A DNA stretch of 21,863 nucleotides, taken from positions 1 to 21,863 of IMG/VR virus record IMGVR_UViG_3300042450_002070, one strand, 5' to 3'. This document shows, in pieces, positions 3,484-18,903 of this stretch; positions within the stretch are counted from its first letter, which is position 1; each line of letters begins with the position of its first letter. A program made the translations under genes and the position numbers. The notes beneath the pieces were generated by a model. It was not told where the DNA came from, did no database searches, and saw only the letters and a program-made list of their open reading frames with translations. The stretch is from a virus.

Positions 3484-4085
3484 TTAGCCGTAATTTCTAT
3501 CTGGAGTGGGAGGGCGAAGCGTACAAGGCTCGCCTCCACAAAGAAATATCAAAGGCAATCCGCATCTCGGCAGGCAAGGTCCGAAACGCGGCTGTCAGGT
3601 TGTTGAACGTGACAGGAAAAGCGGCCACAAAGAGCCTGAATAAACAGACAGGCAAGGCTTTCAAAGGGCTAAATGCAACCCAGAAAAACGCTCTGACGTT
3701 TTCAAACGGACTGAAAACAATTCAGAAGTTGAAAACAGTGAAGGGTCGTAAAAAAACAATGCGATTCGGCGGTGAACACGGCGGGGCAAGTCGAATCTAC
3801 TGGTACGACTCACCACTGAACCGTTGGGTATCCGCTTCACAGCCGGGCACACCTCCGCACAAACAGACCGGTAACCTTCAACAAATTGTGATTGAGCCAT
3901 CACGCGGCGGGCTGCATGCCAAAGTTGGGCCTAAAAGCGGCCTGAAATACGCTCGCATCCAAGAACTTGGCGGCAAGGGAATGCTTAATCTTGCACCCCG
4001 CCCGTACATGCGGCCTGCTGTCGAGTCGCAGCAAGCGGGAATCATGGACCGTTTCGACCAAGCCATCCTGAAGGCATCGACATAA
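3480..4085 (+). CDS. HK97 gp10-like head-tail / neck protein
   Basis: The protein has 201 residues and starts at the ATG at 3480 that overlaps the previous stop (ATGA). The frame stays open upstream to 3261, but that part lies inside the connector gene. The C-terminal half carries the family pattern: a TPPHKQTGNL segment, then YARIQELGG, then PRPYMRPAV, matching the 'y...iEfGt...p.PflrPa' signature of HK97 gp10-type minor tail/neck proteins. The N-terminal half is rich in lysine and helical and is longer than in most relatives. The protein is expected to sit at the junction between connector and tail. The coupled start suggests production in step with the connector. Confidence 0.75.
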   Translation: MISRNFYLEWEGEAYKARLHKEISKAIRISAGKVRNAAVRLLNVTGKAATKSLNKQTGKAFKGLNATQKNALTFSNGLKTIQKLKTVKGRKKTMRFGGEHGGASRIYWYDSPLNRWVSASQPGTPPHKQTGNLQQIVIEPSRGGLHAKVGPKSGLKYARIQELGGKGMLNLAPRPYMRPAVESQQAGIMDRFDQAILKAST

Positions 4086-8976: not shown

Positions 8977-10166
8977 AAGACGCCCGCCCGCAACAGGCTC
9001 TCGAATACAATCTAAATATTCGGGTTCTGGCAGCAAATGAAACCGCCAGCCCGAAGAAATACTCTTGGATTCGCGTTTACCGTGACACCACAGGTAGTTG
9101 GAACAACTTGACCGAATCGGGGAACTATACCTACGATCCAGCCTACGAGTTCGGCGGCGGTGATCTGTCGATCAACTCCGTTTACAGCGCAGGACGCGAG
9201 CCGCGAACAGGGCAACTGCTTGTGTCTAAAGGTGGTGGCGGCGGTGGTACAAACACCAAGACCCAAAGCAATCCGATAATCATGCTCTTAGGCCCGTGGG
9301 CAGACTATAAAGACTGTCCCGGCGTGCCTGCCAAACCGCCGACATTCACCGCCAACGGGACTGACTTTTGCGCCCCGCCTTACGCTTGGGCCGCTTATGA
9401 TGTTTGCAATTACAAGTATGTCAAGAAATTCGATATGCGAGATTTCGGCCATTGGGCCACCGAGCTTAATGGAGGATCTGCAACCGCGTTTCGGCGGCTG
9501 TACAACGCTTATTATGGCAACTCTACTGAGAGCGCAAACCTGACAGCCAACACGCCCACAAGTTGCAAGGGTGTTAGATTCCTTGGCTTTTCATCGCAGT
9601 CGTCTCTGGTCTGCACTTGCCCCTCTTGGATGACTCCGGTTAAATGTTTAATGCTCAAATTCAAGACGATCCCGAGGCCATGTGCAGCACCATCCACTTG
9701 CGGTTATTCTTGCGGGTCCACTTTCCTTCAAATGGACGAATACGACATGTGGGATAAAGAATATACAGTGCAACTCTGTTCCACGATCAGTTGCTTTTTC
9801 GGCGGGAATGTCGGCAGCACCCCGTGGACGGTTGACTTGCAATTCCTGCCGGCATACACCGCTGACCAGTGCTTTTGGGGGCCTGAAATCATCGACCCTT
9901 GCAACCCGTGCGATGGGTTCGGCAAGTTTACTCTGGGAATTCTTTCAGGTATTCAGGCCTCGGATTGCGGCGGGGCGGGAATCATCACATCGACAATCAC
10001 GGATGTCGAGATGAAAGACTTGGTGACGAATTGCGTAGCGAAAAAGCCGACAAATATAGTCATGTGTAACAATTGTCAGAACGCCGGCGTTCCGATCAAT
10101 TTTATTTTGCCGGAGACAGTCGAGCTGTCCTGTTGCATACCGAAAAACCTAGGCACTTGCCCATGA
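8973..10166 (+). CDS. Cysteine-rich tail-tip / adhesin-like protein, unknown family
   Basis: The 397-residue protein divides into two parts. Residues 1-86 are free of cysteine and start with a beta-rich segment (NIRVLAANETASPKKYSWIRVY). A run of six glycines (residues 87-92) follows as a hinge. The remaining 300 residues hold 22 cysteines, many in close pairs (CTC, CGYSC, CNPC, CNNC, CC). Such density points to a disulfide- or metal-stabilised surface protein. The position among distal tail genes suggests a receptor-binding or tail-tip role. No signal peptide is present, so disulfides would have to form after assembly or lysis, and metal binding is the alternative. No family was recognised. 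The start overlaps the previous stop and the stop overlaps the next start, both as ATGA. Confidence 0.65.
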   Translation: MKDARPQQALEYNLNIRVLAANETASPKKYSWIRVYRDTTGSWNNLTESGNYTYDPAYEFGGGDLSINSVYSAGREPRTGQLLVSKGGGGGGTNTKTQSNPIIMLLGPWADYKDCPGVPAKPPTFTANGTDFCAPPYAWAAYDVCNYKYVKKFDMRDFGHWATELNGGSATAFRRLYNAYYGNSTESANLTANTPTSCKGVRFLGFSSQSSLVCTCPSWMTPVKCLMLKFKTIPRPCAAPSTCGYSCGSTFLQMDEYDMWDKEYTVQLCSTISCFFGGNVGSTPWTVDLQFLPAYTADQCFWGPEIIDPCNPCDGFGKFTLGILSGIQASDCGGAGIITSTITDVEMKDLVTNCVAKKPTNIVMCNNCQNAGVPINFILPETVELSCCIPKNLGTCP

Positions 10167-14653: not shown

Positions 14654-14857
14654 ATGCAAAGTTCGTTGAAGCTCGAAAAGGTTACGTTCTATCTTCCTCA
14701 AGACCTCAGGAAACAGCTACGGTTTGCGTGCGTACAACACGACACGACCATGTGCTCAATCTTGACCGACTTGACTGAGATTTATGTCGGTAAGCCGTTT
14801 CAGCCTAAAACCCAAGATCGTCGCAAGACGCGATTTAGCAAAGCAGTTGCCAAATGA
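14654..14857 (+). CDS. Small ribbon-helix-helix (CopG/Arc-like) protein
   Basis: The 67-residue protein starts at the ATG at 14654, preceded by AGGGGA at normal distance. A GTG at 14630 also lies in frame but would include the operator box. The strand KLEKVTFYLP is followed by helix QDLRKQLRFACVQHD and helix TMCSILTDLTEIYV, a good match to the ribbon-helix-helix fold. A basic tail (KTQDRRKTRFSKAVAK) follows. Its stop overlaps the next start (ATGA), so it is coupled to the DCL-HNH gene and the primase-helicase. The layout recalls copG-repB units of plasmids, in which the small regulator represses the Rep operon. Autoregulation through the boxes upstream is inference. Confidence 0.7.
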   Translation: MQSSLKLEKVTFYLPQDLRKQLRFACVQHDTTMCSILTDLTEIYVGKPFQPKTQDRRKTRFSKAVAK

Positions 14858-15585
14858 GTAAACCAGTCAAAGCGAGAACTAAAAACCTGATTGGTGGTCT
14901 CACAGTCAGTGAGGCCACCGAGAAAATCTACGCGATCGCGATCAAGTGCCAGTATGTAAACCGGACGGATTGGGAGATCGAGAACAAACTTCAGATGAGT
15001 TGGGTGCCGGTATGCCCTGAAGACTTCGAGTGGATCACCACTGTATTGATTCCGCGACACGGATCGGCATCAATAAAGATTGGGTGTGGAATATCGGAGA
15101 TCGCGTTCGGCAGGAATAGCCGTTTCGCATCCCGGACAGCAAAGCGGATACCGTGCTGCATGTACGTCAAGAGGACAGACGGTTCGATAGTTGATGTTTC
15201 GTGGCGGGAATGCTTATCACCTTCTCACGACCGGGCCAAGATGCTGAATGCTATGAGGAACTCCGTGCGCCCACAGATCAGGGAATTCCTGGACGCGATC
15301 AAGCCGGAACAGGGATGCCAGATTTGTGGAGTTTCGCTATCTGGGAAAGAGACTGATATTGACCACCACCCTAAACCATTTAAGCGGATTGTTGAGGAAT
15401 GGTTTTTAGCCACGAATCGGGATTGCGATAAGATCAAGGTGTGTGGCGAAAGGGATTTGCAGGTCGGTGACGACTTCGTTGACCAGTCAATTAAGTTAGA
15501 GTGGACCGTCTACCACAGAGAATCAACGGTTGACGGGTTGCGAGCGTTATGCAGGCCGTGTCATTCAACTCTTAAAAGGACCTAA
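14854..15585 (+). CDS. DCL-family (DUF3223) protein with C-terminal HNH-like nuclease motif
   Basis: This is a 243-residue, two-domain protein. The central part (about residues 55-121) follows the DCL/DUF3223 pattern: a helix, then RHGSASIKIGCGISEIAF, then a cysteine/aromatic strand and VKRTDGSIVDVSWRECL. The domain is known from plant DCL proteins needed for plastid rRNA processing and from RNA polymerase-linked proteins, where it is thought to contact nucleic acid or protein. The C-terminal part has HNH-like features: C155/C158, DIDHHPKPF (H171, H172), YH at 220-221, and CRPCH (C233, C236). An endonuclease is likely but activity is unproved. The gene sits between the CopG-like regulator (ATGA overlap) and the primase-helicase (one-base gap), so a replication or DNA-processing role is suggested. 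Confidence 0.7.
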   Translation: MSKPVKARTKNLIGGLTVSEATEKIYAIAIKCQYVNRTDWEIENKLQMSWVPVCPEDFEWITTVLIPRHGSASIKIGCGISEIAFGRNSRFASRTAKRIPCCMYVKRTDGSIVDVSWRECLSPSHDRAKMLNAMRNSVRPQIREFLDAIKPEQGCQICGVSLSGKETDIDHHPKPFKRIVEEWFLATNRDCDKIKVCGERDLQVGDDFVDQSIKLEWTVYHRESTVDGLRALCRPCHSTLKRT

Positions 15586-15586
15586 A

Positions 15587-18010
15587 ATGTCGTGGGAAGA
15601 CTATTTTCGGGCGGTTGAAGCGAACGACTTGACGAGGGCATTCGATGCCCTCGTTAGCGTTGGCGCTTTACCACTAATGATCGGGGCCGACGACAAGGGG
15701 AAATACAAGGATCCCGGCGTCAATGGCAAGGGATGGGGCGTTTCGACAATTGAACAACGGCGGAAACGGCTGATTGATAGCATCGCCAAAGGTCGAAAGG
15801 TGGGTCTAGGCTGTCAGCCGATCGGCTACGTTGTTATCGACATTGACACGCCAGACAAAGATCGCAACCTAATCGACACCGCAACCGAAGAGACAAGAGC
15901 AATCGTATTCGCTGGGAACATGCCGCCCACCCTGACCATCGGAACTCAGGGCGGGCGGCATCTTTGGTTTATCGCTCCAAAATCATTGATTGAATTCTGG
16001 GGAGACAAAGGGAAACAGGAGATTAAACTGCCAAGCGGTGGTGCTGCCGAAATCTTCCTCGGTATTGCGACAAAACAGACGCAAGTGGCTGTTCCACCAT
16101 CGGACGGTAAAGCGATCGAAGTTGAAATGGAACCGGTGATGCTGCCGGATTGGGCGGTTGATTCGATCATATTTCACCTGTTACCACCGAAGAAAAGCAT
16201 CTTTCCTGCCGCTGTTCGTAATGTTGCCAGCGGATCCGATGAAGAGGATTGGTACAGGCGACACACTGAAAAGATTGTTGACGGGATCGCCCGGGCTTTG
16301 CATCCGGAACGACACAAGAAATTTCGGAATGGAGCCTTCGTACTTGCCGGATATGCCACCGGTATCGGTTGCCACCATCTAAGAGAATGGGCCACATCAA
16401 GGGTTCGTGAGGCTCATAAATACGCCAAACCGGAAGTCAGTCCACTTGTGTTAGGAATGACTCCTGAAACAGCCTGGACAATCGGATCCCGGGAATCTCT
16501 TCTACCCAACTGGATTATAAGAAAGCAAAAGGGAATGCCGTACTCAAAAGAATCGGTCGAAGAGGCACATGATCTCGCAGCTGCGGAACAGGTCGATCCA
16601 ATTGTCAGGGAAGATCCTGATCTGGTCAGCTTTTCCAACCCTCACAAACTGGCTCGCGACTGGATCGCCGCTCAGTCCATTGAACAGGTCATTTACTGGC
16701 AAGGGGAATTCTGGCAATGGTCAATGGGTCGTTACGAGTCGATCCCGGACGAGGAAATGGATAGCCGATTATCACGCTGGATTGACGGGGTATTCGCTAC
16801 AGCTGCGAAGGATCAATTCTTCCAGACTCAAGACCCAAAAGAGCGGGCTAAAATCAGAGTTAAATCAGTCACGCCGGGCGTGGTCGAATCGGTCAGGAAA
16901 GCGATCGCCAGCCTGACGACCAAAGAGGTGCGTGAAATTGATGCCATGCCTGCATGGATCCTACCACGGGACGATTGGGACGTTCGTGATGTGGTGTGTA
17001 TGCGAAACGCGATTATCAATCCTCGACTTGGTGGGATCGAAACACTCACGCCCAACCTGTTCTCCCGATACCGAACGGATTATGACTGGATCAACGATGC
17101 TCCAAAACCGAAACGATGGTTGGAATTCCTGAGAGGAATCTGGCCTGACGAAAAGGACTGCATTGAGGCTTTGCAGATGTGGTTCGGATATGTCCTGACA
17201 CAAGACACGCGGATGCAAAAAATCCTGCTCCTGATCGGTCCACCCAGATCAGGCAAAGGGACGATTTCACGGATCATCACCGCAATGGTCGGTACAGGCA
17301 ATGTCGCAAGCCCATCGCTCGGCGACTTAGCACAGCCGTTTGGACTGGCCAGGTGCATCGGCAGGCCGCTTGCAATTATCCCAGATGCCAGAATCGGGAA
17401 TAGGATCGACCAAGCTGTGATCGTGGAACGTCTCTTGTCTATCAGCGGTGAGGACCGCGTGGCCATCGACCGTAAGTATCGGGAATCGTGGGAAGGCCGA
17501 TTGCCCACCCGTCTCATGATCTGCTCAAACGAATTGCCACGATTGCAGGATACCACCGGAGCTTTGCCAAACCGATATATCGTGTTGCCCATGACCAAGT
17601 CGTTTCTCGGATCTGAAGATCGAGAACTGGAATCAGACATCTTGAAGGAGTTGCCAGGCATCGTGACCTGGGCGATTGACGGTTTTCAGAAACTCGCAAA
17701 AGCGGGTCGATTTACCCAACCGGAGTCCGGAAAAGTGCGTCTGAAGGTGCTCGAGGAACTCTGTTCCCCGATCGTCGCGTTCGTTTCCGACCACTATCTG
17801 GTCACTGGAAGCGACAAGGATCGGATCCCAGCAGACAATATTCAGGCCAATTGGAAGCAATGGTGCGAAGAAACGGGGCATTTTCCGGGATCTGTACACC
17901 GTTTCGTCAAAGATCTGACGGATGCTTACCCTGCCGTCAGCAAGAAAAAAATTCGCTCAACCGACTCCGTCACATGGGGTTACGTTGGAATCGAGAAGAA
18001 GTCGGATTGA
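15587..18010 (+). CDS. Replication protein: primase-polymerase fused to SF3/D5-type helicase
   Basis: I use the ATG at 15587, with AAAAGGA upstream. The open frame extends back to 15530 inside the previous gene. The 807-residue protein begins with an archaeo-eukaryotic-type primase-polymerase domain. VVIDIDTP carries the metal-binding D85/D87, GGRHLWF contains H125, and EIFLGIATKQTQVAVPPS is the third motif. A middle linker (about 230-500) precedes a helicase of superfamily 3/D5 type: Walker A GPPRSGKG at about 551-558, an IIPDAR segment as the Walker B region, RLMICSNELP as motif C and NRYIVLPM with the arginine finger. The C-terminus holds a helical, winged-helix-like tail (DNIQANWKQWCEETG). 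It should melt the origin, prime and unwind DNA for phage replication. The repeat cluster directly behind it is a candidate binding site. Confidence 0.9.
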   Translation: MSWEDYFRAVEANDLTRAFDALVSVGALPLMIGADDKGKYKDPGVNGKGWGVSTIEQRRKRLIDSIAKGRKVGLGCQPIGYVVIDIDTPDKDRNLIDTATEETRAIVFAGNMPPTLTIGTQGGRHLWFIAPKSLIEFWGDKGKQEIKLPSGGAAEIFLGIATKQTQVAVPPSDGKAIEVEMEPVMLPDWAVDSIIFHLLPPKKSIFPAAVRNVASGSDEEDWYRRHTEKIVDGIARALHPERHKKFRNGAFVLAGYATGIGCHHLREWATSRVREAHKYAKPEVSPLVLGMTPETAWTIGSRESLLPNWIIRKQKGMPYSKESVEEAHDLAAAEQVDPIVREDPDLVSFSNPHKLARDWIAAQSIEQVIYWQGEFWQWSMGRYESIPDEEMDSRLSRWIDGVFATAAKDQFFQTQDPKERAKIRVKSVTPGVVESVRKAIASLTTKEVREIDAMPAWILPRDDWDVRDVVCMRNAIINPRLGGIETLTPNLFSRYRTDYDWINDAPKPKRWLEFLRGIWPDEKDCIEALQMWFGYVLTQDTRMQKILLLIGPPRSGKGTISRIITAMVGTGNVASPSLGDLAQPFGLARCIGRPLAIIPDARIGNRIDQAVIVERLLSISGEDRVAIDRKYRESWEGRLPTRLMICSNELPRLQDTTGALPNRYIVLPMTKSFLGSEDRELESDILKELPGIVTWAIDGFQKLAKAGRFTQPESGKVRLKVLEELCSPIVAFVSDHYLVTGSDKDRIPADNIQANWKQWCEETGHFPGSVHRFVKDLTDAYPAVSKKKIRSTDSVTWGYVGIEKKSD

Positions 18011-18014
18011 TAAA

Positions 18015-18303
18015 TGTTCCAAGTCTGAAAGGTACTTGGAACAACATTGGAACATTTTAATTCTATACTGTCATAGGATTTATATCATAATGTTCCGTGT
18101 TCCATGTTTTAGACGAAACATTTAGTAAAAACAAAAAGAGAGAGAAAGAGGCCAGGAATGGCAGAATCAGAAAAGGAGATAACAATGGAAAAAACTTGGA
18201 ACATACGGAACATTTCGCTTCCTTCATGGACGCAAGATGATGATCTGCATGGTACTTGTGACAAAAAAGACACCCATTCGGAACTTGGAACAAACTTGGA
18301 ACA
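18015..18303. repeat. Iteron-like TTGGAACA repeat cluster, candidate replication origin
   Basis: TTGGAACA occurs at 18036-18043, 18047-18054, 18196-18203, 18285-18292 and 18296-18303, with GGAACA at 18207-18212. The inverse TGTTCCAA stands at 18015-18022, and TGTTCC at 18091-18096 and 18098-18103. Two of the pairs are 11 bases apart, one helical turn. Three pairs share a larger frame, ACTTGGAACA followed by GGAACATTT (about 18034-18057, 18194-18215, 18283-18306). Between them lies an A+T-rich stretch (18055-18150). Position immediately after the primase-helicase gene fits an origin with iterons. A transcriptional operator is the alternative. Confidence 0.6.
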
Positions 18304-18499
18304 TTTGCCAGAGGTGCCAGAACCAACCATGACGACCGCCTGGGTGTCGGTGGTCAAGTATTGGACTCCGGCAATGACCGTAAAGGCTTGGCCGATGCTG
18401 GATTGGATCATCAAGAACCACGGCGAAATCGAGGCCGCCGAATGGATCTGCACAAAATCGACAAAATTTTTTACTTTAGGCTTGACGTCTAATCTGTAA
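18185..18499 (+). CDS. Hypothetical protein overlapping the repeat cluster (uncertain)
   Basis: This is a frame of 104 codons from the ATG at 18185, which has AAGGAG six bases upstream. An in-frame ATG at 18158 with AGAGG before it is also possible. Its N-terminal part is the translation of the TTGGAACA repeats (TWNIRNISLPSW, LGTNLEHLPEVP). The C-terminal half (AWVSVVKYWTPAMTVKAWPM, then LDWIIKNHGEIEAAEWIC) looks more like an ordinary helical protein. No family was recognised. The gene may be real, or the frame may be open only by chance across an origin. The stop at 18497-18499 lies within the promoter of the next operon. Confidence 0.4.
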   Translation: MEKTWNIRNISLPSWTQDDDLHGTCDKKDTHSELGTNLEHLPEVPEPTMTTAWVSVVKYWTPAMTVKAWPMLDWIIKNHGEIEAAEWICTKSTKFFTLGLTSNL

Positions 18500-18510
18500 A
18501 AACGTATATT
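18482..18510 (+). promoter_or_regulatory. Strong sigma70-type promoter of second early operon
   Basis: TTGACG (18482-18487) and TATATT (18505-18510) are separated by 17 bases, a near-consensus promoter whose transcript would begin near 18517. The -35 box lies in TTGACGTCTAAT, nearly the same as TTGACGTCTATT read on the minus strand at 14624 in the divergent control region. This suggests control by the same phage regulator. Confidence 0.7.
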
Positions 18511-18530
18511 GATTTTGCAGTCAGTTGATT

Positions 18531-18568
18531 CTGACGTCAGTAAGTAAAACAGTCAGCCCAGTAAGTAA
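18531..18568. promoter_or_regulatory. Operator palindrome CTGACGTCAG and CAGTAAGTAA direct repeats
   Basis: A perfect ten-base palindrome CTGACGTCAG (18531-18540) lies about 15 bases after the predicted transcription start. CAGTAAGTAA is repeated at 18538-18547 and 18559-18568. A repressor bound here would block the promoter just upstream. It is the most symmetrical of the TGACGT boxes in the window. Confidence 0.5.
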
Positions 18569-18591
18569 CACTCTTCGCGGAGCACAACACA

Positions 18592-18903
18592 ATGAACAGC
18601 ACGTTAGATCAAGACCTATCCGCAGACCACCAAGCCCGCCTTACGGCTGGCCTGCGTGATTACGACGAGCAATGGATCGAGAGGGAGCGAATGGCTCGTG
18701 AACTTCAGACACGGTTCGAATCCAGCCGCCAGCGTGAGGAAGAGCAAGACGCTCGACTCCTGGACACCGCTTTTCAGTCCGAACAGCGTCTACTCATCAC
18801 GATCGAATCGGCCTTATTGGACGATGACCACACCGCCAATCTGTCGCACGCCGCCGTCACAATCGCACGGCTTCGCAGCCGGTTGACGGAGGTGACACGA
18901 TGA
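18592..18903 (+). CDS. Hypothetical coiled-coil protein
   Basis: This is a 103-residue, strongly charged helical protein (DEQWIERERMARELQTRFES, then EEEQDARLLDTAFQSEQRLL), very probably a coiled coil, with no recognised family. GGAG stands about ten bases before the ATG. It is the first gene of the operon starting at the 18482 promoter and overlaps the next gene by ATGA. Composition and size suit an early phage protein acting by protein contact, but no function can be assigned. Confidence 0.6.
   Translation: MNSTLDQDLSADHQARLTAGLRDYDEQWIERERMARELQTRFESSRQREEEQDARLLDTAFQSEQRLLITIESALLDDDHTANLSHAAVTIARLRSRLTEVTR

Follow-up and report, generated by a model that had tools for sequence, protein, structure and literature searches.

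The question raised by this locus is what function is served by a crowd of short repeats lying directly behind a primase-helicase gene. The window, that is, the whole stretch of DNA analysed here (virus record IMGVR_UViG_3300042450_002070, 21,863 nt, ~21.9 kb), encodes a minor head protein, a head protease, a major head protein and a connector (PHROG matches), an integrase on the minus strand and an Enc34-type ssDNA-binding protein, and its source is, as judged from these genes, a temperate tailed phage, represented by a fragment. A DNA similarity search of phage records gave weak, chance-level matches only. The first-pass annotation had proposed that the repeats form a candidate phage origin beside the initiator gene, and this proved to be the best-supported reading by virtue of the position of the cluster, the crowding of its copies and its retention in relatives: most probably, the cluster serves the phage as its origin of replication, one of the SaPI/PICI Rep-ori type.

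A cluster of iterons behind the primase-helicase gene

Nine exact GGAACA/TGTTCC hexamers were counted at 18015-18303 (Table 1), in agreement with the earlier claim of at least eight octamer or hexamer copies in 290 bases, and the remaining 21.5 kb of the window holds 13 hexamer copies. The octamer TTGGAACA is exact at six of the nine hexamers, and the copy at 18098 differs from it by one mismatch. Over the entire window this octamer is not enriched (29 matches with at most one mismatch vs. 21 expected); the signal is the local crowding of the copies, not their window-wide abundance. The hexamer occurred on average 0.32 times and at most four times in 20,000 Markov simulations of 18011-18310, and 2,000 simulations in which any hexamer was allowed peaked at seven copies. 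When the whole window was scanned, the top enriched 500-bp stretch was the iteron cluster (P ~5e-10), with the next unrelated stretch at 6e-6. A literature search for TTGGAACA retrieved nothing relevant among the matches listed.

The iterons follow the strand order -++--++++, and close neighbours on the same strand are spaced by 11, 7, 9 and 11. Two iteron sets (18015-18054 and 18091-18103) surround DNA that is 81% AT, as anticipated by the earlier mention of an A+T-rich stretch between the repeats, and the second half of the iterons (18198-18303) lies across the central spacer; the symmetry of this layout is imperfect, and lower than in many relatives. AT content amounts to 72% over 18050-18149, vs. 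47% for the window. The pairs with 11-base spacing, formerly described as part of a frame repeated three times, are exact at 18036/18047 and 18285/18296, but the third frame (18185/18196) is approximate, since its first copy (ATGGAAAA) is degenerate; moreover, spacings range from 7 to 12 overall, the 11-base frame being only one component of this wider pattern. An origin based on DnaA boxes was discarded, exact matches to TTWTNCACA being absent from the window and one-mismatch matches being below chance window-wide. The cumulative GC skew of the contig, which is a fragment, makes no turn near 18 kb and has its minimum at ~14.5 kb, where gene orientation switches.

Table 1. Positions of the replication gene, the elements of the candidate origin and the overlapping gene in the window.
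Feature	Position	Strand	Basis
Primase-helicase, Prim-Pol + DUF5906/D5-type helicase, probable initiator	15530-18010	+	Pfam, PHROG, profile match
C-terminal winged-helix tail (predicted), putative iteron-binding domain	17831-18007	+	AlphaFold model, Foldseek
Iteron 1 (TGTTCC), outer left, first hairpin arm	18015-18020	-	sequence
Perfect 10-bp inverted repeat, 9-nt loop, two opposed iterons	18015-18043	.	single-strand z ~-3.4
Iteron 2 (GGAACA), outer left, second hairpin arm	18038-18043	+	sequence
Iteron 3 (GGAACA), 11 bp from iteron 2	18049-18054	+	sequence
AT-rich stretch, 81% AT, candidate melting region	18055-18090	.	base composition
Iterons 4 and 5 (TGTTCC at 18091, 18098; spacing 7), inner left pair	18091-18103	-	
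Central spacer, 67% AT, with polypurine tract	18104-18197	.	
Small conserved gene, 104 aa, overlapping right half of candidate origin	18185-18499	+	AAGGAG upstream of ATG; orthologues
Iterons 6 and 7 (GGAACA at 18198, 18207; spacing 9), inner right pair, within ORF	18198-18212	+	
Iterons 8 and 9 (GGAACA at 18287, 18298; spacing 11), outer right pair, within ORF	18287-18303	+	

Beyond the cluster, window 18482-18539 contains a sigma-70-like promoter (TTGACG, 17 bp, TATATT) with a GACGTC palindrome on either side (18484, 18533); this arrangement is kept in contigs L005 and L006 and is likely to be the promoter and operator of the genes from 18592 onward. A direct repeat (CAGTAAGTAAAAC / CAGTAAGTAACAC, 21 bp apart) occupies 18538-18571, shortly 5' of the gene at 18592.

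The probable initiator, the overlapping gene and their relatives

The product of the gene preceding the cluster matched DUF5906 (4e-13) and Prim-Pol (6.5e-7) in Pfam and a DNA primase in PHROG (1e-61), and its helicase half gave a profile match to the SaPI5 primase-helicase (7OLA) with E=1.9e-79. The true start of the gene is likely the ATG at 15587, because relatives begin at the residue encoded there. A DUF3223 protein is encoded upstream of the primase (14854-15585). In the AlphaFold model (pLDDT 86), the C-terminus consists of two helices followed by a beta hairpin, and the best Foldseek match was again the SaPI5 primase-helicase (TM 0.71 over the modelled region), which, by profile and predicted fold, is the closest solved relative of this D5-like, SaPI-Rep-homologous helicase. 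The first iteron lies only 5 bp behind the stop codon, placing the candidate origin immediately 3' of the gene, and the predicted C-terminal winged helix would be the reader of the iterons.

The ORF at 18185-18499 had been regarded as weakly supported. It is, instead, a real conserved gene, with AAGGAG before its ATG and orthologues in contigs L004, L005 and L006 that share a conserved C-terminal part (WTP..TVKA..P). The 104-aa protein has no Pfam or PHROG match, and a search for it found a match only in a near-identical contig. Its N-terminal, iteron-bearing part is poorly conserved in comparison with the C-terminal one, and the identical codons in the 5' part of the ORF fall mostly on iterons (CGG AAC ATT; GGA ACA .. 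TTG GAA CA). Because the N-terminal protein drifts and the identical codons track the iterons, the DNA signal, previously suggested to be primary, can be considered to lead in the 5' part of the ORF, and the protein in the 3' part; strong conservation of the protein with synonymous drift through the repeats was looked for and not found.

Relatives of the primase were identified in three viral contigs (99%, 60% and 60% identity), and all three carry 9-10 hexamers right behind the primase gene, so that no relative was found that keeps the gene and lacks the repeats. At 60% primase identity, iteron copies have been gained, lost and moved, and the strand order has drifted from that of the window to +++--++-++ in L005. 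This drift of the arrangement, with the cluster being kept, is what would be expected if the iterons act as binding sites. In L004, as compared with the window, 18008-18222 is free of substitutions, vs. ten in the 244 bp of 17764-18007.

Known origins and the wider family of helicases

SaPI origins are found just downstream of rep and contain iterons (PMC7581432). In E. coli PICIs, the origin directly follows the initiator gene and invariably consists of an AT-rich region with an iteron set on each side (PMC6092414). The locus shares with the SaPI/PICI Rep-ori systems (SaPI5, PDB 7OLA/7OM0) a homologous primase-helicase and an origin immediately 3' of its gene, with iteron sets around AT-rich DNA (PMC6092414, PMC7581432), and differs from them in that the right half of its candidate origin is shared with the 104-aa gene; the likeness to SaPIs and E. 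coli PICIs is one of layout and, for SaPIs, of initiator homology, iteron words aside. Unlike these satellites, the phage represented by the window encodes head proteins and an integrase of its own. The possibility of a PICI satellite, using the capsid genes of a helper phage, was rejected in view of these head genes, and the window is read as a phage using a PICI-type origin rather than as a PICI itself.

Other systems resemble the locus in part. The SCCmec Cch2/Cch helicase genes also have iterons just downstream, and the isolated C-terminal domain of Cch2 binds the repeats behind its own gene; the Cch2 iteron, however, is AAGTG, and its primase is a separate protein pair (PMC7581432). The origin of Streptococcus phage Sfi21 (NC_000872, 302 bp) is likewise a stretch right behind the primase gene with two-strand iterons and an AT-rich core, but its word is AGTAAC/GTAACT instead of GGAACA, and it is noncoding, whereas the candidate origin in the window is half coding. 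In pRN1, ORF904 is a prim-pol/helicase/winged-helix protein with the origin downstream of its gene, but that origin is a 100-nt stem-loop without iterons (PMC4234260). A pRN1-type origin was dismissed for the window, where iterons are present and the sole hairpin is the 10-bp one formed by two of them.

By analogy with SaPI Rep and Cch2, the primase-helicase of the phage would bind the GGAACA iterons through its C-terminal winged helix, and each of the two iteron sets would be an assembly site for helicase rings. Melting of the intervening AT-rich DNA would follow, and the Prim-Pol domain would prime synthesis at the opened origin, leading to its firing.

The generality of this arrangement was evaluated with 88 DUF5906 helicase genes from three bacterial phyla, picked by protein alone, by recording, for 500-bp stretches, any hexamer whose enrichment reached P<1e-5. 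Such a hexamer was present behind the stop at 35 of the 88 loci (40%), vs. 5% for the last 500 bp of the gene, 3% for the stretch 500-1000 bp behind it, 5% for the upstream end of the locus and 0.5% for Markov simulations. Some ORFs among the test loci resemble antisense frames, and the figure of 40% is therefore conservative; the value for stretches following other ORFs of the viral control loci (18%) comes from a set selected for repeats, which is not a clean control. The remaining 53 loci showed no enriched hexamer behind the stop and, therefore, the arrangement is not universal. As a positive control, the annotated 302-bp origin of Sfi21 passed the test (AGTAAC, seven copies). The enriched words vary by locus (ACGTCC, AGGTAA, GGTTAC, GGCACA and others), and GGAACA as a universal D5-helicase iteron was rejected, since it appeared at only one of the 88 loci (L501), the others having their own words; it is only one iteron word among several. 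Judging from sequence, many related replication genes, in bacteria as well as in other phages, thus appear to be followed by candidate origins comparable to that of the window. In Marinobacter phage PS6 (L129), the 500 bp behind position 4074, after the primase gene, contain GGGACA ten times, an unannotated candidate origin whose word is one letter off GGAACA. A GTTGATAT / CTTGATATATAAG-like motif recurs in the candidate origins of L013, L075, L044 and L586, as well as in the Sfi21 origin.

A gene-blind search for three GGAACA copies in close succession also ended at such helicases. Many dense matches were discounted, being repeats within repeat-protein genes (L280, L284, L295, L306, L348 and others). 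Two-strand intergenic GGAACA clusters were present, among the matches listed, in 49/120 viral loci and 24/118 loci from bacterial genomes; for control words in viral loci, the corresponding counts among the matches listed were 30/120 (GGCACA), 9/120 (scrambled, GAGACA) and 2/120 (reversed, ACAAGG). As GGCACA and GAGACA also cluster, GGAACA is common, not unique. In 75 non-redundant clusters among the matches listed, spacings were concentrated between 8 and 12 bp and peaked at 9 and 11; since the search pattern itself demands this range, only the peaks inside it and the second-strand copies are informative. Among these same listed matches, minus copies lay left of plus copies in 53 of the 75 clusters, and 71 were more AT-rich than their surroundings.

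Clusters of this type immediately follow DUF5906/D5 genes (Runella, Neobacillus, Companilactobacillus, Emticicia and several viral contigs), VapE-like genes, and also DUF927 genes (Serratia and one viral contig), so that, in several phyla, the word occurs behind helicases of the D5, VapE and DUF927 (Cch-type) kinds. In a second group of viral contigs, the cluster is near terminase genes, mostly without an SF3 helicase match; a DUF927 (Cch-type) helicase was found elsewhere in the contig in 8 of the 24 searched, vs. none of 24 controls. This group includes L014, L007, L064, L076 and similar viral contigs, whose clusters have the same layout and sit in large noncoding gaps; the contig of L076 encodes a DUF927 helicase together with an A-family DNA polymerase. 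In L115, a GGAACA cluster (9756-9989) lies right behind a DNA methylase gene, near a DUF6371 protein, and no DUF5906, VapE or DUF927 helicase was found in that contig.

A tentative and rather doubtful extension of these observations is that GGAACA may be a shared word, read by unrelated self-loading helicases (D5/DUF5906, VapE and DUF927/Cch-type) via a common C-terminal winged helix, in which case origin specificity would be a module moving between helicase cores, across phyla. A K[KR]x?R motif was present in the last 75 residues of 14 of 23 GGAACA-type proteins vs. 13 of 87 others (p=2.5e-5, uncorrected for kinship and for a motif picked after looking). The C-termini of D5 and DUF927 proteins gave a weak profile match (P=4e-4), and those of D5 and VapE proteins gave none. 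The single occurrence among the 88 protein-selected genes argues against a universal GGAACA code.

Alternative explanations and meaning of the locus

The repeats might take no part in initiation and be, instead, operator sites through which a phage regulator, perhaps the 104-aa protein, controls transcription downstream of the primase. The iterons are indeed located upstream of and within the small gene, two of them form a hairpin right behind the primase stop, and many initiators also autoregulate. We consider this explanation unlikely: the sole plus-strand sigma-70-like site in 17950-18620 (18482-18510) lies behind the cluster, helicase genes of other phyla are followed by the same clusters in the gene-blind searches, while a search for the 104-aa protein found it only in the near-identical contig, and nine sites over 290 bp with mixed spacings would be unusual for an operator.

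The consensus of the alphaproteobacterial LexA box is GAAC-N7-GAAC, and both 11-base pairs, the only two such in the window, fit GAACN7GAAC exactly. Even so, it is very improbable that they represent LexA boxes of this type, given that five of the nine copies are outside such pairs, that similar clusters exist in Bacillota, Bacteroidota and others, and that spacings of 8 and 9 outnumber 11 over the 75 clusters among the matches listed. The notion that the repeats merely reflect coding constraint in the ORF at 18185-18499 gains something from this gene being real and conserved in relatives, yet it is scarcely credible: it was already contradicted by the intergenic copies (five of the nine are outside the ORF), the copies inside use two reading frames (TGG AAC / CGG AAC; GGA ACA / TTG GAA CA), and they fall in the less conserved part of the protein.

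The reading of the cluster as a replication origin is preferred because its crowding is beyond chance, it is kept in relatives, the neighbouring gene product is homologous to the SaPI5 protein, and 40% of the DUF5906 loci tested have an enriched hexamer in the same place; these, like the position and the AT-rich DNA, are computational observations. Three aspects are new: an origin of this kind is present in a full phage, a conserved small gene overlaps it, and there is evidence that such origins are frequent behind D5-type helicases. Should it hold true that the origin of D5-type primase-helicases is often located in the 500 bp after the gene, sequence alone could suffice to read many origins of phages and islands. 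Helicase tails paired with iteron words would make up a data set on which residues read which word. Finally, the occurrence of the SaPI/PICI layout in a full phage, together with a homologous initiator, is relevant to the question of how PICIs originated.
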